DNA from: an uncultured Oleispira sp.
Lineage (GTDB): Bacteria > Pseudomonadota > Gammaproteobacteria > Pseudomonadales > Oceanobacteraceae
Direction of reading: 5' to 3'
DNA: 42,006 bases
Assembly: GCA_913061415.1 (NCBI GenBank)
Contig: CAJXUD010000021.1
Span: 1-42,006, forward strand
The position numbers and the translations under genes are program-made. Positions 9,256 to 28,817 of this stretch are shown in pieces. The stretch's first letter is position 1. Every line of letters starts with the position of its first letter. The notes below the pieces were generated by a model. That model searched no databases, was not told where the DNA came from, and worked only from the letters and a program-made list of their open reading frames with translations.

Positions 9256-11076
<1,821 letters not shown>

Positions 11077-15513: not shown

Positions 15514-17772
<2,259 letters not shown>

Positions 17773-19559: not shown

Positions 19560-20045
19560 TTATTTAACCTGTTTCTTAGCGCGCTCTGTCAGTTGAATGG
19601 CTTGATCGCATGCATTAGCAAGCTCCAGACCCTTCTTCAAGAAATGACGACTGAAATATTCAATATGTTCTGCATGCTCATGAAAATGATGCGGTGTTAA
19701 TACAGCCGTCAGAACCGGAACTTCTGTTTCTAACTGAATTTGCATCAATGCATTACACACGGTTTGAGCAACAAAATCATGTCGATAGATGCCACCATCT
19801 ACAACCAATGCACTACCCGCAATAGCCGCATATTGACCACTTTTTGCTAACAATTTAGCTTGCAGTGGAATTTCATATGCACCTGGTACCGGAATCACAT
19901 CAATCAATGATACGTCATACCCACGCGAAGATAACTCTTTTTTGAATCCTTCCAGACAATTTAATACGATCTCTTCATGCCAAGTGGCGTGTAAAAAAGC
20001 GATGCGTTTGGTTGCAGGAGTGAAGTTCGTTGAGCTCTGATTCAT
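19560..20045 (-). CDS. ribH: 6,7-dimethyl-8-ribityllumazine synthase, type II
   Basis: A 161 aa enzyme of riboflavin synthesis that condenses 5-amino-6-ribitylamino-uracil with dihydroxybutanone phosphate. Motifs are FLHATWHEEIV (18-28, substrate pocket), VPGAYEIPLQAKLL (about 53-66) and GGIYRHDFVAQTV (about 85-97) with the catalytic His. The lack of the type I GAVIRG-T-H block and the DGGIYRHDF form point to RibH2, the decameric class, usually an extra copy beside the housekeeping ribH. No other rib genes are adjacent. Expression is controlled by the FMN riboswitch upstream. marC follows 8 bp downstream. Confidence 0.92.
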   Translation of the reverse strand: MNQSSTNFTPATKRIAFLHATWHEEIVLNCLEGFKKELSSRGYDVSLIDVIPVPGAYEIPLQAKLLAKSGQYAAIAGSALVVDGGIYRHDFVAQTVCNALMQIQLETEVPVLTAVLTPHHFHEHAEHIEYFSRHFLKKGLELANACDQAIQLTERAKKQVK

Positions 20046-20132
20046 TATAAAACCCTATACCTATAAAGTGAATCAGGGCGAACGGACAGGCAAAATCATC
20101 CTAAAACAAGGAATACCTAGATTTGTCTGACA

Positions 20133-20298
20133 CGTTCTCTAACATCCGGACTATAACCGTCGGCTCTGGAATCACACCAGATCTGCTGACCCTTCAAGAT
20201 AATAAGCATATTGAACCATACCCTAAATTGAAGGCGCTCGCGGGCTTAGAAATAATTCTTTACCGCCGGTGGGGAGTTCCACCCCGCCCCGAGAACGA
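20133..20298 (-). ncRNA. FMN riboswitch (RFN element)
   Basis: Read on the minus strand: P1 arm CGTTCTC (20297-20291) pairs with GAGAACG (20139-20133). Between them are all the conserved RFN blocks: GGGGCGGGGTGGAACTCCCC, ACCGGCGGTAA, AAGCCCGCGAGCGCC, a variable arm, GTGTGATTCCAGAGCCGACGG and AGTCCGGATG. FMN binding would lower ribH2-marC expression. There is no obvious U-tailed terminator before the ribH2 ATG, so control of ribosome-site access is more likely. The 105-codon plus-strand frame across this region is not a gene. Confidence 0.95.
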
Positions 20299-20321
20299 AA
20301 TCGAAATAATTCGACGGGGCG

Positions 20322-20351
20322 AATATACGTGCATTTACTGCCTAATGTCAA
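20322..20351 (-). promoter_or_regulatory. Sigma-70 promoter of the FMN riboswitch operon
   Basis: On the minus strand a perfect -35 TTGACA (20351-20346) is followed after 18 nt by TATATT (20327-20322), a 5/6 match to the -10. Transcription would start about 10-20 nt before riboswitch helix P1. Position and motif agree well. Confidence 0.75.
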
Positions 20352-20526
20352 AATCTGTTCATCTTACAACGAAGATTACAGAGGAATTTAATCTAAAACC
20401 GCCTTACAAACCTACCTTTTTCATCATTTCATACAAGTAATTAATTTGAATTTGAGGCTAAATGCGCGCGCTTAAAGATTAACCTGAACAGTCATTAATC
20501 AATTAAGTATTTTATGCCACATATCA

Positions 20527-20613: not shown

Positions 20614-22281
20614 ATGCCCATTAATATATCAAATATCGCCAACTGTCTAAAAGACAATGCTCATAAATTTCCTAATAAAAAAGCAATCATCTATCCAGTC
20701 GGCACACACAAAGATGGATCAATTAAATACCATCATAAAACCTATAAAGAACTCAACATAGAATCCGACCAATATGCGCGTGGATTTGAATCTGCTGGCA
20801 TAAAGAAAGGCACTAAAACCTTGTTTATGGTTAAACCAGGGCCTGATTTATTTTCAATTACCTTCGGTTTGTTTAAAGTCGGTGCGATCCCCGTAATTGT
20901 GGACCCAGGTCTAGGCGTTAAACGTATGTTGCATTGCTTCAACGCAGTGAATGCAGAAGCCTTTATCGGAATAAAACGCGCCCATATATTTAGACTTCTA
21001 CTTGCTCGCCACTTTAAATCTGTAAAAATATGGATAACGGCAGGTAAGCGACTATTTTGGGGAGGCTATTCTCTTAAAAATCTTGCAAAACAAATAACAA
21101 CGCCTTATCAAATGGCCGAAACAACGCCAAATGAACTTGCGCTCATTAACTTCACTACCGGTAGCACTGGGCCTGCGAAAGGTGTCGAATATACCCATGA
21201 GATGATTAATAAAGAATATCAATCATTGAAGCTTAATTATTACAATAACCCTGACCATATTGACCTGGCAACACTATCATTATTCGCTCTGTATGACATT
21301 TTAATTGGCGTAACAGCAATACTCCCTAAGATAGACGCAACAAAACCTGCACTCGTTGACCCTCAAAATATTATTGATCCAATAAAACAATTTAATGCGA
21401 GCATGATGTTTGCTTCTCCCGCTTTACTTAATCGAGTGGGTAAATATGGAATTGAACACAACATCAAGCTTCCAACACTAAAAACGGTTCTAGCGGGTGG
21501 GGCCCCCGTGACATTGTCGACCATGAAGGTATTTCAACAACTACTGAGTGATGATGCATCGATCCTGACAACCTATGGATCAACCGAAGCTCTACCAATT
21601 TCATCCATAGACTACAAAACACTCGAAGTGAATTGCCGTCATAAAACAGAAGTGGGAATGGGAACCTGCATAGGAAAACCCCTTGAAAGCGTCGAAGTAT
21701 CAATAATAGAAATAACCGACACTCCAATACCACAATGGGATGAAAAACTTCTAGTACCAAACGGCACCGTTGGCGAAGTGGTTCTTAAAGGTACGATTGT
21801 CAGTCAAAGCTATTACAAAAACCCGCAGGCTAATTCACTCAATAAGATTAAAGATGGTAATGAAAACAGACACCGTATGGGCGACCTTGGCTTGCTCGAC
21901 GAGGAAGGACAACTGTGGTTCTGCGGACGTAAGCAGCAAAGAGTTATTACAAGCAAGACCACACTTTTTACCGTTCAGTGCGAAGGTATATTTAATCAGC
22001 ACCCTGCTGTTTTCAGAAGTGCCTTAGTGGGTATTGGTGATAAGAATAATCAAACCCCTGTTATCTGCATTGAATTAGAGCCAGAGCAAGTTGAAAATAT
22101 AAAAATCCCTAAAGAAAAGGCTGCTTTAACACAATCAATTCTCAACATAGGGAAAGCACACACGTTAACTCAAGAGATAAGCACCCTTCTATTTCATCCA
22201 TCATTCCCAGTAGACATTCGACATAACGCCAAAATAGGCCGCGAGCAACTTGCCATTTGGGCAGAACAGGAAAAGCAATAA
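20614..22281 (+). CDS. OleC-like acyl-AMP ligase / beta-lactone synthetase
   Basis: A 555 aa ANL-superfamily enzyme. Visible motifs are the P-loop NFTTGSTGPAKGVEYTH (about 177-193), TTYGSTEALP (about 318-327), MGDLGLLDEEG (about 422-432), GRKQQRVI, and the C-terminal NAKIGREQL with the catalytic Lys (about 540). VDPGLGVKRMLHCFNAV and AFIGIKRAHIFRLL near residues 91-130 are typical of OleC. OleC adenylates a beta-hydroxy acid formed by OleA and OleD and closes a beta-lactone. It is the first gene of the operon. The ribosome-binding site is weak, with two mini-ORFs of 6-7 codons just upstream. A general fatty acyl-AMP ligase is the alternative, but the OleD-like gene beside it favours OleC. Confidence 0.85.
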   Translation: MPINISNIANCLKDNAHKFPNKKAIIYPVGTHKDGSIKYHHKTYKELNIESDQYARGFESAGIKKGTKTLFMVKPGPDLFSITFGLFKVGAIPVIVDPGLGVKRMLHCFNAVNAEAFIGIKRAHIFRLLLARHFKSVKIWITAGKRLFWGGYSLKNLAKQITTPYQMAETTPNELALINFTTGSTGPAKGVEYTHEMINKEYQSLKLNYYNNPDHIDLATLSLFALYDILIGVTAILPKIDATKPALVDPQNIIDPIKQFNASMMFASPALLNRVGKYGIEHNIKLPTLKTVLAGGAPVTLSTMKVFQQLLSDDASILTTYGSTEALPISSIDYKTLEVNCRHKTEVGMGTCIGKPLESVEVSIIEITDTPIPQWDEKLLVPNGTVGEVVLKGTIVSQSYYKNPQANSLNKIKDGNENRHRMGDLGLLDEEGQLWFCGRKQQRVITSKTTLFTVQCEGIFNQHPAVFRSALVGIGDKNNQTPVICIELEPEQVENIKIPKEKAALTQSILNIGKAHTLTQEISTLLFHPSFPVDIRHNAKIGREQLAIWAEQEKQ

Positions 22282-22282
22282 A

Positions 22283-22579
22283 ATGATATCTAACTATACC
22301 AAAGGCTTTAATAAAAACGACAAACTACTGATGTTAATACCGGTTTTTGGCTGGTTATTCATCCTTTATGGTTTAGTAATTCCCATCGATAACTTATACA
22401 TCAAATGGATGTGGTATATCGATATTTTCTTAAGTGTACCCGTCCACTTACTTCAGCTTTTCATAGCAGTTCCTGTGGGCAAAAAATCAGGTTATACAAA
22501 ATCACAGAGTGTTGTCTTAACGGTTTTATTTGGTGCAACGTGGTGGAAGCCGGTAAGGCAACAACTGGTGAACAAGTAA
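22283..22579 (+). CDS. Small membrane protein in biosynthetic operon, unknown
   Basis: A 98 aa protein starting 1 bp after the OleC-like stop and overlapping the next start as TAATG. Two or three hydrophobic segments are visible: LLMLIPVFGWLFILYGLVIP (about 15-34), WYIDIFLSVPVHLLQLFIAV (about 44-63) and a weaker VVLTVLFGATWW (about 77-88). Conserved-looking Trp, His and Pro residues lie within the helices, and a basic tail follows. I do not recognise the family. Its tight coupling implies a role in making or moving the product, for example as a membrane anchor, isomerase or export helper. Confidence 0.75.
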   Translation: MISNYTKGFNKNDKLLMLIPVFGWLFILYGLVIPIDNLYIKWMWYIDIFLSVPVHLLQLFIAVPVGKKSGYTKSQSVVLTVLFGATWWKPVRQQLVNK

Positions 22580-23607
22580 TGAAAGTTTTAATCACAGGCG
22601 CAACTGGATTTTTAGGTAGCTATATCGTTGACAAATGCATAGCACAAGGCGATAGCGTTCGAGTTTTAGTACGTAAAACGAGTGATATCGAATATTTAAA
22701 AAAGTATCCCTCAATTGAATATGCTTTTGGTGACCTAACCAACCTTTCATCACTTAAGGATGCTACTCGTGGTGTTGATATTGTTTATCACTCTGCCGCT
22801 CGGGTCACCACTAAGGGAGATAGAAATCAGTTTTATCGAGACAATGTTGTAGCGACTCGCTGTTTAGTTGACGAATCAAAAAAACAGGGCGTTAAACGTT
22901 TTGTTTTTATAAGTAGCCCCAGTATCTTTTTTGACTTTTCTCATCAAGTTCACATTGATGAAAGCTATGCTTACCCAAAAAAATACATCAATTACTATTC
23001 AGAGACCAAGGCACTTGCCGAGAAATATGTTTTATCGCGCAATGATGAAAATTTTACAACCTGCTCACTTAGACCTCGCGGAATTTGGGGCGCTCGAGAT
23101 AAAACAGGATTTGTGCCAAAAATAGTAAAGGGCATGCTAAATGAAAAATTTCCCGACATGTCTGACGGTAAAAATATTTATGCAACCTTGTGCCATGTTG
23201 AAAATGCAGCCAATGCTTGCATCCTAGCGGCACAATCAAACAACGTCGGCGGTAAAGCGTACTTTATAACCGATGACGAAACCGTAAATGTTTGGGACTT
23301 CCTACGCAGCCTAGGACAAACCTTTTCAGCCCCCCCGATTAAAAAAGAATTAAGTTCAAAGCTGCTCATGACGCTAGGCGGTTTGTTTGATTTGATTTGG
23401 AAATTCCCTCCACTAGCGCAGAAAATTGAAGCGCCTCTTTCTCGCTATGCGGTTGGGTTATTAACCTATACATCGACTTACGATATCAGTGCTGCTAAAA
23501 GAGATTTCGGTTACCAAGCTCGAGTTAAACAAAATACAGGCATGCCTAAGCTTAAGGCGTGGGTTGATGAGCTGGGCGGCGTTGAAGCTTTTGTGGAACA
23601 CGTATAA
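22579..23607 (+). CDS. OleD-like NAD(P)-dependent reductase (3beta-HSD/SDR family)
   Basis: From ATG 22579, overlapping the previous stop, this is a 342 aa extended short-chain dehydrogenase. It has GATGFLGSYIV (residues 7-17, nucleotide-binding glycines), DLTN, YHSAARVTTKGDRNQF, the SSPS stretch, and the catalytic YSETKALAEKY (Tyr-x3-Lys, about 140-150), followed by RPRGIWGARD. OleD reduces the 2-alkyl-3-oxoalkanoate made by OleA to the beta-hydroxy acid used by OleC. Longer upstream starts (22405) lie inside the membrane-protein gene and give non-homologous sequence. It overlaps the P450 start by 1 nt. Confidence 0.87.
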   Translation: MKVLITGATGFLGSYIVDKCIAQGDSVRVLVRKTSDIEYLKKYPSIEYAFGDLTNLSSLKDATRGVDIVYHSAARVTTKGDRNQFYRDNVVATRCLVDESKKQGVKRFVFISSPSIFFDFSHQVHIDESYAYPKKYINYYSETKALAEKYVLSRNDENFTTCSLRPRGIWGARDKTGFVPKIVKGMLNEKFPDMSDGKNIYATLCHVENAANACILAAQSNNVGGKAYFITDDETVNVWDFLRSLGQTFSAPPIKKELSSKLLMTLGGLFDLIWKFPPLAQKIEAPLSRYAVGLLTYTSTYDISAAKRDFGYQARVKQNTGMPKLKAWVDELGGVEAFVEHV

Positions 23608-25049
23608 TGCCAGGGCCATCAAAGACAGGAAATAATATTTCTCCACTTCTTCAATTTGAAGATTTACCTGGCCCACATCCTTGGCCTATTGTTGGCAATG
23701 CCCTGCAGGTTAAGCTGCCTCGTCTACACCAAGACATCGAGGCATGGGCGAATAAATATGGTTCCGTCTTCAAGATGCACCTTGGACCAACCAAAGTTTT
23801 AGTCATTGCTGATCACAAAATAGAAACTGAACTTTTAAAAGACCGCCCTAGTGGATTTCGTCGCCCAAAACAACTCGTTGATACAATAGAAGAAATGGGT
23901 CTTCAATCAGGCCTTTTAACCGCCGAAGGTGAAGCTTGGAAACATCAAAGACGAATGGTGATGGCCAGTTTAACAGCCAGTAATGTGCGCAGTTATTTCC
24001 CCTCTCTTGTAAAAGTCACCAAGCGCTTACAGAAACGATGGACTAAAGCGGCCCAAAGTAATACCAGCATTAATGTACAGCATGATTTTATGCGCTATAC
24101 CGTCGATGCTATTGCTGGCTTATCTTTTGGCTCAGATATTAATACCCTAGAAACTAAAGATGATGTAATTCAACATCATCTTGATAAAATATTACCGGCA
24201 ATCTTCAGCCGTTTGAATGCACTTGTTCCCTATTGGCGCTACTTTAAACTCCCCTCCGACCGTCAACTCGATCGAAGTGTATCGATTGTAAATCAATCAA
24301 TTAAGGAATTTATCAGCCAATCACGACAACGCCTGGCTGAAGAACCTGAGCGGCGCGCCACGCCCACAAACTTGCTTGAATCGATGATCGTTGCCGCAGA
24401 GCAACCTAATAGTAGCGTTGATTATAACGATATCGCAGGCAATGTAATTACCATGCTACTCGCCGGTGAAGAAACAACAGCAACAACATTATCTTGGTTA
24501 CTGTATCTATTAAAACGAAACCCAGAAGCATTTAAAAAAGCCCAAGACGAAGCACAGGCCATGTCTGGCGAATTAAACGAGATCACACCAGAAAGACTTA
24601 ACGATTTAAAGTTTATAGAAGCGTGCACTCTTGAAACATTAAGACTTAAACCTACTGGGCCTTTCAATGTTCTGGTTTCGCTAAACGATACAGAGGTGGC
24701 AGGTGTTGCAATAGCTAAGGGAACTTGGATCTGGAGTGTATGTCGCCATGACACCTTGGCTGAAAAATATTTCCCGAACCCTCAGGCCTTCAACCCAGAG
24801 CGCTGGTTAATACATCCTGATAACGATCTTTCTCTATCTAGAAAAGTTTCAATGCCATTTGGCTCAGGGCCGCGAGTCTGCCCTGGGCGTTACCTAGCCA
24901 TGCTGGAAATCAAACTGGCCATGGTAATGCTCCTTAATAATTTCGACATACTTAGCGTCGATACTCCTGACGGTGGCGAAGCTCAAGAGCTGATGTCAAT
25001 TACGATGAATCCTGTAGGTTTGACAATGAGATTGCGTGAACGCAGTTAA
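23607..25049 (+). CDS. Cytochrome P450 monooxygenase
   Basis: A 480 aa P450 with all diagnostic motifs: the I-helix oxygen-binding AGEETT (286-291), K-helix ETLR (343-346), NPERW, and the haem loop FGSGPRVCPGR with ligand Cys425. There is no N-terminal membrane anchor, and PGPHPWPIVGN near residue 21 is the proline-rich hinge. It resembles bacterial long-chain fatty-acid or lipid hydroxylases of the CYP102/CYP4-like type. No ferredoxin or reductase gene is nearby, so electrons must come from elsewhere. In this operon it probably hydroxylates the lipid chain, making an acceptor OH for the carbamoyltransferase (inference). Confidence 0.93.
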   Translation: MPGPSKTGNNISPLLQFEDLPGPHPWPIVGNALQVKLPRLHQDIEAWANKYGSVFKMHLGPTKVLVIADHKIETELLKDRPSGFRRPKQLVDTIEEMGLQSGLLTAEGEAWKHQRRMVMASLTASNVRSYFPSLVKVTKRLQKRWTKAAQSNTSINVQHDFMRYTVDAIAGLSFGSDINTLETKDDVIQHHLDKILPAIFSRLNALVPYWRYFKLPSDRQLDRSVSIVNQSIKEFISQSRQRLAEEPERRATPTNLLESMIVAAEQPNSSVDYNDIAGNVITMLLAGEETTATTLSWLLYLLKRNPEAFKKAQDEAQAMSGELNEITPERLNDLKFIEACTLETLRLKPTGPFNVLVSLNDTEVAGVAIAKGTWIWSVCRHDTLAEKYFPNPQAFNPERWLIHPDNDLSLSRKVSMPFGSGPRVCPGRYLAMLEIKLAMVMLLNNFDILSVDTPDGGEAQELMSITMNPVGLTMRLRERS

Positions 25050-25104
25050 CTCATACTCAACCAATGCTCAAATTTATAAACTATTAATCTTAAGGAAATC
25101 CAGA

Positions 25105-26142
25105 ATGATAAAAGCACGCTTCGAGAGTATCGGTGCCTATATACCGAATAAAAGAGTTTCAACAGAAAGCTTAACTCAAGAGATGAATATACCTCCCCAG
25201 TTTGATATTGAGGCTATTACCGGAATAAAAACTCGTTCTTGGAAAGAAGACAAAGACGACTCCTTCACAATGGCCATCGATGCGGCACAAAGTTGTTTAG
25301 AGAATTCTAAATACGAAGCTGCAGATTTAGATATTATTATTTCATGTTCCATCGCTCGCTTCGTAGGGGAATCCAGTTATTACGAGCCTGCGATGAGTCT
25401 ATTACTTAAACATGAATTAGGAGCCAAAAAAGCAATATTCTTTGATATTTCCAACGCATGTGCAGGAATGTTCACTGGCATTTATATTTTAGAGTCTATG
25501 ATAAAAGCTGGCATTGTTAAAAATGGTTTGGTTGTTAGTGGCGAATATATTTCCACGATTGCCGAAACGGCAGTATTAGAAGCAAAAGACATCTACGACC
25601 CTCAGTTCGGCTCGCTTACCGTGGGTGATGCAGGCGCAGCAGTGATCTTAGATCAAGCGACCAATGAAGATGACGTAATTGATTGCTTTAACTTAATTAG
25701 TACTCCTGAATATTCTGACCTTGCCATTGGAAAGCCTAGTAATCAGAGTAATCGGTACGCTATGTACGCAAGTAACTCAAAGATGCATACCGAAGAACGG
25801 TTAAAAATTTGGCCAAACTTTCAAACAGATACACTGGCCAAAGAAAACAAAGAGTTCAAAACAGAAAATTTTGATTACATCATTCATCATCAAGTAGGCT
25901 CAAAGTTTATTGAGCGATTATTGAAAATCGGGACAGAAGCTTTTTCTTCAGAGCAACCAGAATCGTTATCGGTATTAGAGAAATATGGCAATACGTCATC
26001 CACTTCTCATTTCATCGTGCTTTATGAATATCTAAAAGCCAACAAGCTAAAAGAAAAATCAAAAATACTTATGGTACCCGCCGCATCCGGCTTTGTTACC
26101 GGTTTTTTATCTATGAACATTAACAAATTGGCAGTGAAATAA
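25105..26142 (+). CDS. OleA/KAS III-like condensing enzyme, complete triad
   Basis: From ATG 25105, with an AAGGAA ribosome-binding site, this is a 345 aa thiolase-fold enzyme; a start at 25036 would add 23 residues that overlap the P450 gene end. The triad is intact: Cys119 in SNACAGM, His262 in IHHQVG and Asn296 in YGNTSST. FVGESSYYEPAM (about 87-98) resembles the Glu-containing segment of OleA that deprotonates the second acyl group. It should condense two fatty acyl thioesters head-to-head. The next gene is a paralogue starting 2 bp after this stop, so the two are probably partners. Confidence 0.87.
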   Translation: MIKARFESIGAYIPNKRVSTESLTQEMNIPPQFDIEAITGIKTRSWKEDKDDSFTMAIDAAQSCLENSKYEAADLDIIISCSIARFVGESSYYEPAMSLLLKHELGAKKAIFFDISNACAGMFTGIYILESMIKAGIVKNGLVVSGEYISTIAETAVLEAKDIYDPQFGSLTVGDAGAAVILDQATNEDDVIDCFNLISTPEYSDLAIGKPSNQSNRYAMYASNSKMHTEERLKIWPNFQTDTLAKENKEFKTENFDYIIHHQVGSKFIERLLKIGTEAFSSEQPESLSVLEKYGNTSSTSHFIVLYEYLKANKLKEKSKILMVPAASGFVTGFLSMNINKLAVK

Positions 26143-26144
26143 TC

Positions 26145-27032
26145 ATGGCAACAATCATAAAAGCAACGGGCATTAGTACCGACAAGTCTATTAAAAGTTC
26201 AAATCAACACGCTATCGAAGCAGGTCGACAATGTATTGAAGATGCTGGTATTGATATCAATCATATTGATCTGATAATTAACGTTGGAATTTATCGCGAT
26301 GAGAATATGCTTGAGCCTGCAATGGCCGCCTTTGCTCAAAAAGGACTCAACATAAAGCCCGACTATACAAAGTCCCAGCCTTTTAACGCCGCATTCTCAT
26401 TAGATATGATGAACAGCGCTTGTGGAATAATTAACGCGATACAAACCGCCGATGCAGTTTTCAAAAGCAGAAAAATCAAATACGCGTTAATTGTTTCGAG
26501 TGACGCTCACCCTTCAAACACTGACCATAAAGGATTTCCATACGCTACGATTGGCGGAGCAATGCTGCTTGAACATACCGATGATAATAAAGGCTTCCAT
26601 GACTTCAGCTTTAACCATTCACCGACTACCGACCAAAGCGTTAAAGGCTATTTGGACTTCAATAATCTGTCAGAGCCTGCCAAAGAACGGCTAACGGTAG
26701 ATATGCCTGGCGATTATAAAAATCAGCTGCTTAAATATTCTAGTGAGTCCGCCGAAGAATATTTAACGCGTTTCAACATCAATCGCAAAACGGTCAAGTT
26801 AGTCAGCGTTCAACCCGAGCTTAATTTTGGACGAAAAATAGCAGATATTGTTAACATAAAAGATGATTCAATCATGGACCATTATGAACAATATGGGGAT
26901 GCACATTCATCAGCGATTACTATGAATTATCATCATTTATCCAAAGAAAATTCTTTTAAATCAGATGATACGATTTTATTTCTAGCAGCCGGTGCAGGTA
27001 TCACCACAGCCTGCGTATCCTATACGGTTTAA
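26145..27032 (+). CDS. Degenerate OleA/KAS III-like partner subunit
   Basis: A 295 aa thiolase-fold protein, shorter at the N-terminus than its neighbour. Cys93 is kept (MMNSACGI), and RDENMLEPAM (51-60) matches the OleA Glu segment of the first subunit. The region equivalent to the catalytic His reads VSVQPELNFG with no His, and the Asn position reads YGDAHSS, with Asp-Ala in place of Asn-Thr. It is therefore unlikely to act alone. Lipstatin synthesis uses a two-subunit KAS III heterodimer (LstA/LstB), and this pair looks analogous. The 2 bp spacing supports stoichiometric coexpression. Confidence 0.83.
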   Translation: MATIIKATGISTDKSIKSSNQHAIEAGRQCIEDAGIDINHIDLIINVGIYRDENMLEPAMAAFAQKGLNIKPDYTKSQPFNAAFSLDMMNSACGIINAIQTADAVFKSRKIKYALIVSSDAHPSNTDHKGFPYATIGGAMLLEHTDDNKGFHDFSFNHSPTTDQSVKGYLDFNNLSEPAKERLTVDMPGDYKNQLLKYSSESAEEYLTRFNINRKTVKLVSVQPELNFGRKIADIVNIKDDSIMDHYEQYGDAHSSAITMNYHHLSKENSFKSDDTILFLAAGAGITTACVSYTV

Positions 27033-27095
27033 CTCTGTTTATAAGAAAACATAACAATATTGTATCTTCAAGATTAGTAGTAACGGACATAACCA

Positions 27096-28817
27096 ATGAA
27101 AAAAAATTATGTGGGCATTGCATGCTCACAACACGACCCTGCAATTGCCATTGTTAATTCAGAGGGTGAAGTTGTATACGCTGAATCAACCGAACGCCAT
27201 TTGCAAAACAAACGCACTTGGAATACCTTTGCTGATGATTTAATTCACGTCGAGTATCTCTTAAAAAAATACACGGACAAAGATGCAGATCTTGTAATTG
27301 CCAAAACATGGAGTGGTAAAACACAATTCAGTTTGAAAATAATTTTCTTATTACTACCGCTGTTTAAAAAGAAAATGATTCCTTACGTTTATAACGTTTA
27401 TTACTATCTAATTGAATCCTTACAAAACGTCTATGATTTCTCAGGTAAAAGCCTTCGCTTTCAACGTCGTATGTCAAACCCAGACGTTAATGTCGACGTA
27501 CACAACTGCGACCATCATCTAACACATGCCGCGACGGCTTGTTATAGCAGCCCATTCCAGGAAGGTGTTTGTGCCGTGATTGATGGCTTTGGCGAAAGCA
27601 CATCAACGTCATTTTACAGCTATAAAAATGGGAAAATAACCAAAATACCAGGAATTAAAAAATCATTACAAAGCCTTGGCATGTTTTACAGCATGATATG
27701 CAAAGTCTGCGGCTTTGATCCTATCAAGGGTGAAGAATGGAAAGTAATGGGGTTAGCCCCTTACGGTAAATATGACGAATCCATCTACGGCAAATTAAAA
27801 AAAATATTAGATGTAGAAGACACTCGTTTTGTAAGCCGTAATTTTTCAGTACTGAATGTCTACGATGAACTTTTCGAGATGAAGCTAAAACCGGGGCACT
27901 CTTCTATTGAAGCAGCTGATATTGCCTATAATGGTCAACTTATTTTCACCGAACTCATGTCAGAAATTCTCACGCAGCTTCACGGTAAAAATATTTCTGA
28001 TAATTTAATCTTATCGGGAGGTTGCGCATTAAACTCAGCCTGTAACGGTTTACTACTAGAAAAGACACCCTTTAAGAAACTGCACGTTTATTCTGCGCCC
28101 GGCGATGAAGGTAATGCTATTGGCGCCGCCCTTTTGTCATTCTATAAAGACAATCCAAGCAAAAATGTACCGACTGCTCAGATGTCTCCCTATTTGGGCG
28201 AATCAATGAAGACTGAGGTTATGAAGAACTGTAAAGAACACAGTGGATTGAAGCATAAAACACTTAATGGTCAGCCCCTTTATCAACATGTTGCCACCTT
28301 ACTCTCTGAGGGTAAAATAATTGGCTGGGTGCAGGGGCGAGCAGAATTCGGACCTCGCGCACTGGGTAACCGTTCCATCTTGGCTGATCCACGCTCGGTT
28401 GAAATGAAAGATGCGCTAAATTCACGTGTTAAGTTCCGTGAGGAATTCCGCCCCTTTGCTCCCTCTATTCTTCATGAGTACGGCGAAGAGTATTTTGAGA
28501 ACTATCAATCATCTCCTTATATGGAGCGTACACTAAAGTTCAAAAGTGCTGTATGGAATAAAGTGCCAGCGGTAGTACATGAAGATAAAACAGGTCGAGC
28601 ACAGAGTGTAACGCGCGAGAGCAATGAAAAATATTATGATTTGATTTCGGCATTTAATGAAATTACCGGTGTGCCCATTCTTATTAATACTAGTTTCAAT
28701 GTTATGGGTAAACCCATTATTCATTCGGTTGAAGATGCATTATCGGTTTTCTTTACCAGCGGACTCGATGTATTGGTCATTGAGGACATGGTATTTAATA
28801 AGAGTGACTTTGAATAA
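27096..28817 (+). CDS. NodU/TobZ-family O-carbamoyltransferase
   Basis: A 573 aa enzyme with the two-domain carbamoyltransferase layout. The N-terminal Kae1-like domain has the metal-binding DHHLTHAATA (about 139-148), CAVIDGFGES, GEEWKVMGLAPYGKY and LSGGCALN (about 308-315). The C-terminal YrdC-like domain has QGRAEFGPRALGNRSILADP (about 411-430). These enzymes make carbamoyl-adenylate from carbamoyl phosphate and ATP and transfer it to a hydroxyl of a small molecule. The start 63 bp after the previous gene keeps it in the operon. The acceptor is unknown; a P450-made OH on the lipid is the simplest guess. It ends in a run of 16 bp repeats. Confidence 0.92.
   Translation: MKKNYVGIACSQHDPAIAIVNSEGEVVYAESTERHLQNKRTWNTFADDLIHVEYLLKKYTDKDADLVIAKTWSGKTQFSLKIIFLLLPLFKKKMIPYVYNVYYYLIESLQNVYDFSGKSLRFQRRMSNPDVNVDVHNCDHHLTHAATACYSSPFQEGVCAVIDGFGESTSTSFYSYKNGKITKIPGIKKSLQSLGMFYSMICKVCGFDPIKGEEWKVMGLAPYGKYDESIYGKLKKILDVEDTRFVSRNFSVLNVYDELFEMKLKPGHSSIEAADIAYNGQLIFTELMSEILTQLHGKNISDNLILSGGCALNSACNGLLLEKTPFKKLHVYSAPGDEGNAIGAALLSFYKDNPSKNVPTAQMSPYLGESMKTEVMKNCKEHSGLKHKTLNGQPLYQHVATLLSEGKIIGWVQGRAEFGPRALGNRSILADPRSVEMKDALNSRVKFREEFRPFAPSILHEYGEEYFENYQSSPYMERTLKFKSAVWNKVPAVVHEDKTGRAQSVTRESNEKYYDLISAFNEITGVPILINTSFNVMGKPIIHSVEDALSVFFTSGLDVLVIEDMVFNKSDFE

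Follow-up and report, generated by a model that had tools for sequence, protein, structure and literature searches.

A probable lipstatin-type β-lactone operon with other tailoring genes in a gammaproteobacterium

A contig from an uncultured Oleispira sp. carries a seven-gene operon that probably belongs to the lipstatin (lst) type of β-lactone pathway: on sequence comparison it would be a gammaproteobacterial sister to the actinobacterial lst-type clusters, fitted with other tailoring enzymes. The window analyzed here (42,006 bases) is one whole contig (CAJXUD010000021.1) from a 3.65-Mb draft genome (GCA_913061415.1). Seven closely packed plus-strand genes fill positions 20614–28817. They encode an adenylate-forming ligase, a small membrane protein, a reductase, a cytochrome P450, two β-ketoacyl-acyl carrier protein synthase III (KAS III) proteins termed KasA and KasB, and an O-carbamoyltransferase. 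The best reading of the product, following presumed chemistry, is a carbamoyloxy, probably P450-oxidized dialkyl β-lactone.

Gene content, gene order, conservation, relatedness, and active-site residues are matters of direct observation. The LstAB heterodimer is reported to require residues C128, H271, and N305 of LstA and E60 of LstB, and the excerpted text of the same review describes LstB counterparts as widespread and always co-clustered with LstA (PMC12141560). All of these essential residues have counterparts in KasA and KasB. The KasA triad, Cys119-His262-Asn296, is retained in 28/28 LstA-type rows, and Glu94 in 26/28; with the 12 more distant rows that this count omits, the figures become 40/40 and 37/40. 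The KasB alignment keeps Glu57 in every row (29/29), along with Cys in 22/29, His in 0/29, and Asn in 1/29. KasB Glu57 would be the equivalent of LstB Glu60, matched by position and motif. The KasB glutamate aligns with the "EP" motif of the solved Xanthomonas OleA, whose glutamate we take to be OleA Glu117, donated across the dimer. The single-chain AlphaFold2 model of KasB is a confident KAS III fold (mean predicted local distance difference test score, 88.1); its best matches in the PDB are FabH proteins, with OleA appearing from rank 29. Measured against the lst-type rows, then, the operon contains an adjacent LstA/LstB-like pair with both the Cys-His-Asn triad and the glutamate.

Phylogeny places most of the core with the lst-type clusters (three of four trees: KasA, ligase, and reductase). 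In the midpoint-rooted KasA tree of 40 rows, which has no FabH outgroup row, the window and G309, a closed genome of the same genus, stand beside the lst-type rows in an 11-row set (100/99), which also takes in the KasA rows from Nocardia aurea and Antrihabitans. The ligase falls with lst-type LstC in a 9-row set (95/96), and the reductase with lst-type LstD in an 8-row set (100/99); Nocardia aurea rows lie in both. (The ligase tree omits three nonribosomal peptide synthetase [NRPS] matches and L039; the reductase tree omits the L139 reductase, which is split in its record; and L014 and L015, duplicates of L036 and L026, are absent from three of the trees (KasA, reductase, KasB) and from the residue counts.) Window KasA is 43–50% identical to KasA of loci L021–L023 and L138–L140. 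The operon thus holds an LstC/OleC-family ligase and an LstD/OleD-family reductase that both group with lst-type homologues, and the ligase scores 669 bits with NCBIfam PRK09274 (cut-off 478).

The telling link is the 98-residue protein encoded between ligase and reductase, a predicted membrane protein by its hydrophobic stretches. Searched with tblastn (E up to 1) against 145 loci, it matches only the window's own loci, G309, L021, L022, L023, L138, L139, and L140, always at the ligase–reductase junction. The homologue has a gene of its own in Rhodococcus, and in the three Streptomyces loci it is encoded in frame within the terminal part of the ligase gene; 15 residues are invariant across the eight aligned sequences. 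Among these 145 loci it was not found in any of olefin or Ketobacter type, and is therefore a mark of the lst-type lineage.

The lipstatin operon itself is laid out as lstA–F. Plasmids of Streptomyces sp. NBC_01001 and S. globosus have the order KasA-KasB-ligase-reductase-NRPS-formyltransferase; on the Rhodococcus qingshengii TG-1 plasmid, a 97-residue hypothetical protein follows the ligase, and an MMPL gene follows the formyltransferase. The window shares with these clusters the adjacent LstA/LstB-like pair, the LstC-like ligase, the small membrane protein, and the LstD-like reductase, and so the likeness to LstA/B/C/D proposed in an earlier sequence-only reading holds. The lst-type clusters likewise contain no gene annotated oleB (in NBC_01001 an alpha/beta-hydrolase-fold gene lies upstream in the opposite orientation and has no similarity to OleB domains at 0.01). 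Three differences stand out: the P450 and O-carbamoyltransferase replace the NRPS and formyltransferase; the order is C-membrane protein-D-P450-A-B-carbamoyltransferase rather than A-B-C-D-E-F; and the host is a gammaproteobacterium rather than a member of the Actinomycetota. The label "OleACD-type" in the earlier reading can be narrowed, since the KasA, ligase, and reductase trees place the core more specifically with the lipstatin type.

What sets the operon apart is its tailoring genes. The carbamoyltransferase has both Carbam_trans domains over its full length, by Pfam and PDB matches; its nearest solved structures are NovN, a carbamoyltransferase (7xb6), TobZ, and GdmN, and DHHLTHA and GRAEFGPRALGNRS are presumably the motifs of its two active sites. 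At 1e-5 among 163 loci, it matches only its own genome, G309, and one unrelated protein at 28%. (A KAS III–carbamoyltransferase link in L162/L164 was rejected, since this 28% match lies beside apparent fatty-acid housekeeping genes.) The P450 has the motifs AGEETT (286), ETLR (343), and FGSGPRVCPG (418), with FGSGPRVCPGRYL in its heme region. It is the sole P450 match in its own genome, and the same is true of its counterpart in G309; the search of the 163 loci otherwise returned two dissimilar P450s in G313 (22–23%) and one in Nocardia aurea L033 (24%).

Other KasA-KasB cores have other neighbours. A scan of the genome collection with the KasA alignment gave 243 relatives, of which the best 80 were kept; among these, a KasB-like neighbour (1e-6 or better) accompanies KasA at 20 loci. 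Six loci in the same 80 have KasA at 46–50% identity, in Rhodococcus, Streptomyces, Nocardia, Antrihabitans, and two metagenome-assembled genomes (MAGs), one of Proteobacteria and one of Lokiarchaeota. (The Lokiarchaeota pair lies at L025:3760–5709 on a 7-kb contig, and could be a real transfer or a binning error.) In L029 the pair has glycosyltransferase, PIG-L deacetylase, and alcohol-acetyltransferase-like genes as neighbours, and in Nocardia aurea (L033:11906–13873) and Antrihabitans cavernicola (L024:11809–13905) an asparagine-synthase-like gene (Pfam) directly follows it. Therefore, in the samples searched, the combination with P450 and carbamoyltransferase is seen only in this genus.

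The operon is more than a chance assembly, because G309 carries the full set with an identical gene order. Protein identities between the two are 82% for the ligase, 78% for the membrane protein, 76% for the reductase, 75% for the P450, 89% for KasA, 73% for KasB, and 89% for the carbamoyltransferase. Across the seven genes, nonsynonymous change (0.07–0.16 per site) is far rarer than synonymous change (0.76–0.82, saturated), and a chance or decayed cluster was rejected on these grounds. The G309 locus also has an MFS transporter gene (Pfam MFS_1; L137:17229–18794) upstream on the operon strand; the window lacks one at the corresponding position. Its product is a possible exporter.

Distribution beyond this pair is sparse. 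KasB searches matched the same two genomes (its own and G309) out of 6 in the genus and out of 44 in the family at 1e-10; sampling from larger groups gave 9/293 in the order at 1e-15, its own included, and 1/369 in the class at 1e-20, its own. A broad KasB profile matched 43/398 genomes in the phylum, its own protein at 403 bits and the other 42 at 75–92 bits; these 42, of which L162 was looked at more closely, are taken as ordinary KAS III. A scan of viral contigs gave a single partial KAS match. The ribH-like gene beside the operon was considered as neutral flanking sequence for detecting an empty site and set aside: the four members of the genus that lack KasB contain no close homologue of it (best identity 31–32% in three, none in G311).

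Every chemical step that follows, including the sites of oxidation and carbamoylation, the chain lengths, the activity, and the order of steps, is what we infer from this relatedness. KasA, with its catalytic Cys-His-Asn, and KasB, with its glutamate base, would pair as a heterodimer and condense two fatty acyl-coenzyme A (acyl-CoA) molecules without decarboxylation, yielding a 2-alkyl-3-keto acid. The LstD-like reductase would convert this to the 3-hydroxy acid, and the LstC-like ligase, along with the small membrane protein, would adenylate it and then close the β-lactone. In lipstatin, the 3-hydroxy-acyl hydroxyl bears an aminoacyl ester. Here the hydroxyl might come from P450 oxidation of an alkyl chain, or from a 3-hydroxyacyl-CoA as in lipstatin; sequence cannot decide between them. 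The carbamoyltransferase would cap it as a carbamate, in place of lipstatin's N-formyl-leucyl ester. (The LstAB substrate includes 3-hydroxy-C14 acyl-CoA, according to the excerpted text of PMC12141560.) There is no linked OleB, and the β-lactone would therefore be the end product. A hydroxylated, carbamoylated β-lactone is thus plausible and would probably inhibit serine hydrolases.

Several observations weigh against a lipstatin-type assignment. The KasB tree fails to resolve a grouping of the window and the lst-type rows, and among solved structures KasA has a closer sequence match in FabH (9e-24) than in OleA (2.5e-10). The ligase scores 551/536 bits with the OleC equivalogs, under cut-offs of 850/900, and the reductase 206/204 bits with the OleD equivalogs, under a cut-off of 580; the lst-type members scanned fall under these cut-offs likewise. 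The carbamoyltransferase's substrate is not readable from its sequence, and a haloalkane-dehalogenase-family protein is encoded elsewhere in the genome. Finally, the LstE-like NRPS and LstF-like formyltransferase are missing. The Rhodococcus sequences of both match homologues in L021, L022, L139, and L140, following the core in L021 and L022; L023 (Nocardia puris) has an NRPS match of 389 residues, and the examined stretch of that locus showed no formyltransferase. Within the window and the G309 stretch, the same NRPS query matches only the LstC-like ligase (21–22%), and the formyltransferase matches nothing. The genome's seven AMP-binding open frames (549–664 residues) are too short for an NRPS like that of lst-type clusters. 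With both enzymes absent, the lipstatin analogy is limited to the core, and the operon is not filed as a lipstatin cluster.

The low OleC-equivalog scores are also compatible with a product that is not a lactone, an alternative judged unlikely. The condensation product would decarboxylate to a ketone and be reduced, and the ligase would activate some other acid, leading to a carbamoylated long-chain alcohol or lipid. Ketobacter-type loci, from the same order of bacteria, make the idea concrete: they have KasA (41–44%), KasB (30–36%), and a reductase (33–35%, in 6/7 of L013–L019; L019 ends at a contig edge); searches with the ligase, P450, carbamoyltransferase, and small membrane protein gave no match there. 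Such loci put the heterodimeric KAS pair to another use, and in L014 it is set beside genes for an MMPL transporter and a Condensation-domain protein. (Both lie upstream of KasA-KasB-reductase; look-alikes were seen by eye in L017.) The Oleispira ligase, however, passes the PRK09274 cut-off and falls with the LstC proteins of clusters containing the NRPS and formyltransferase, and the operon retains the LstC-linked membrane protein.

Less likely still is an olefin pathway, in which an OleB encoded elsewhere would decarboxylate the β-lactone to a long-chain olefin. The oleABCD olefin clusters, including those with oleBC fusions, share with the window a condensing enzyme that keeps the glutamate, a reductase, and an OleC-family ligase; unlike the window, they have OleB. 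Their condensing enzyme is a single OleA, in place of which the window has two adjacent KAS III genes of the LstAB kind, one degenerate. OleB-type genes do occur beside KasA-KasB pairs. OleB-OleC fusions accompany the pair in a Spirochaetes MAG (L027:4141–6843) and a Syntrophaceae MAG (L028:11939–14602), loci that read as an olefin-type pathway with an LstAB-like heterodimer, and the pair in L037 lies beside a haloalkane-dehalogenase/OleB-like gene. The pair alone therefore does not settle the product. The trees nevertheless group the Oleispira core with the lst-type rows, not with the OleBC-fusion loci, and we know of no role for a P450 or a carbamoyltransferase in olefin formation.

The sequence-only reading had noted that the operon lacks oleB, as it does, and had proposed looking for the gene elsewhere. 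Among the genome's 28 Abhydrolase_1 matches (other hydrolase families were not searched) there is no convincing OleB. A single contig 16 protein comes closest to the L027/L028 OleB domains, at 28–30% identity; it scores 432 bits with the NCBIfam haloalkane dehalogenase PRK00870, above cut-off, and has VCQDWGSLIG at the expected nucleophile position. It also occurs in G313 and G298 (of 12 genomes queried), both without a KasB match. An oleB acting in trans was rejected accordingly: the sole candidate among these matches is unlinked, of PRK00870 type, and present in relatives without KasB. Nor is there a second candidate for OleA, since the three ACP_syn_III_C matches in the genome are KasA, KasB, and a fatty-acid KAS III of PRK07515 type (526 bits, cut-off 304).

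The P450 raises a separate question, which touches a described organism. Oleispira antarctica has one P450 gene, C17420, presumed to encode a hydrocarbon hydroxylase; the excerpted text of PMC7318663 reports the protein as undetected in the proteomes of any treatment, without CYP153 motifs, and one that "performs another function." The same source names C23040, C34350, and C34450 as alkane monooxygenases and C34830 as a desaturase. Of nine FA_desaturase-family matches in G309, four (at 2,530,154, 3,873,014, 3,884,084, and 3,924,493) fit those genes at about 1,100–1,130 bases per gene. On that scale C17420 is predicted near 1.9–2.0 Mb, and the sole G309 P450 lies at 1,906,437, inside the operon. 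From this we infer O. antarctica RB-8 as the identity of G309 and C17420 as its operon P450. The operon thereby offers a candidate role for the only P450 of O. antarctica.

That this P450 is instead an alkane hydroxylase of hydrocarbon degradation, merely located in the operon, merits very little credence: O. antarctica degrades alkanes and C17420 was presumed to act on hydrocarbons, but C17420, if it is the G309 P450, was undetected in any treatment and lacks CYP153 motifs (excerpts of PMC7318663), the window P450 has FGSGPRVCPG as its heme motif and not the conserved CYP153 motif HTCMGNRL (PMC7318663), and its gene lies inside the operon, overlaps the reductase gene by one base, and keeps its position in both genomes.

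A lipstatin-type core thus remains the preferred assignment, and the published record offers partial precedent. A. atraurantiacus, as excerpted in PMC7064751, has oleACD without oleB, a P450 proposed for acyl-chain hydroxylation, and a transferase proposed as an alcohol cap; it differs in naming OleA rather than a KAS pair and a glycosyltransferase rather than a carbamoyltransferase, and the likeness is by description only. It is the nearest published idea. P450 tailoring of such a core is therefore not new in itself, and "undescribed," in the earlier reading, stands only for the gene combination, in what was searchable. Nothing on such an operon was found at title and abstract level (antiSMASH databases were outside the search), and no paper in the collection searched mentions both carbamoyltransferase and lipstatin. 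Oleispira figures in a study of a nudibranch-symbiont β-lactone synthase only as a community member and probe control, and P450, carbamoyl, lstA, oleC, and lipstatin go unmentioned (PMC10262491); nocardiolactone and lipstatin-type clusters are mentioned for Nocardia (excerpts of PMC7413640).

The layout of the operon (Table 1) bears out most of the earlier gene list, with some amendments. Its ligase, reductase, KAS pair, P450, and carbamoyltransferase are all present, on the plus strand and within the operon, but the membrane protein had gone unnamed. Starts said to be mostly overlapping overlap at only 2/6 junctions, by one base each from the coordinates (membrane protein/reductase and reductase/P450); at the remaining four junctions the genes are separated by 1, 55, 2, and 63 nucleotides. 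Two starts were corrected to later positions than the mechanical open reading frames (ORFs): the reductase at 22579 (ORF 22405) and KasA at 25105 (ORF 25036). G+C content is 40.3% in the operon and 42.3% in the rest of the window. A scan for promoters and terminators did not exceed shuffled sequence (23 versus 25.2 and 7 versus 7.4).

Table 1. Genes of the Oleispira operon (window coordinates)
Product	Coordinates	Strand	Basis
LstC/OleC-like adenylate-forming enzyme, candidate β-lactone synthetase, 555 aa	20614..22281	+	NCBIfam PRK09274, tree
Small predicted membrane protein, 98 aa, homologue of the LstC-linked domain/protein in lst-type clusters	22283..22579	+	tblastn, alignment
LstD/OleD-like 3β-HSD-type reductase, 342 aa	22579..23607	+	Pfam 3Beta_HSD 1e-41, tree
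Cytochrome P450, 480 aa	23607..25049	+	Pfam p450 4.9e-88, motifs
KasA, LstA-like KAS III, 345 aa	25105..26142	+	intact Cys119-His262-Asn296 and Glu94, tree
KasB, short LstB-like degenerate KAS III, 295 aa	26145..27032	+	invariant Glu57, predicted fold
O-carbamoyltransferase, NovN/TobZ/GdmN type, 573 aa	27096..28817	+	Pfam Carbam_trans_C 6e-70, Carbam_trans_N 1e-38
aa, amino acids; HSD, hydroxysteroid dehydrogenase.

Upstream of the operon, an FMN riboswitch (Rfam RF00050, 118.6 bits) lies at 20130–20300 on the minus strand, ahead of the ribH-like gene at 19560–20045 (minus strand). A 105-residue ORF at 20123–20440 sits opposite the riboswitch; it is probably spurious, and was rejected as an operon member. 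Farther away are reciprocal recQ/katG chimeras at 9289–11076 (plus strand) and 15514–17724 (minus strand): one joins a RecQ start in frame to a KatG end, as judged by eye, and the other a KatG start to a RecQ end. This looks like either an inverted segment (about 9.62–17.02 kb) whose breakpoints fall within the two genes or an assembly error; none of the 25 inverted-repeat pairs shown is a long repeat at the breakpoints. The operon lies outside this region.

Together, these results suggest a broader proposal, tentative as a whole and more doubtful than its lipstatin-type premise: that Oleispira make a carbamate-capped lipstatin analogue, representing a new carbamoyloxy β-lactone class; that lst-type synthetases need an overlooked membrane partner that keeps closure at the membrane; and that the P450 of O. 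antarctica RB-8 serves tailoring in this pathway rather than alkane hydroxylation. Lipstatin inhibits lipases, and the obesity drug orlistat derives from it. Through this operon, a carbamate could be tested as a substitute for the aminoacyl ester on a lipase-inhibiting β-lactone. Likewise testable is the role of the single P450 of O. antarctica, which the proteome study, as excerpted, left open (PMC7318663). A small protein annotated as hypothetical becomes a possible partner of LstC-type β-lactone synthetases. Moreover, LstA-LstB pairs are described as widespread in bacteria, and the excerpted text of PMC12141560 leaves their products outside the Actinomycetota unstated. With this sister operon, from a marine, probably oil-degrading genus that includes a culturable member, the products of such cores beyond that phylum become open to experiment.

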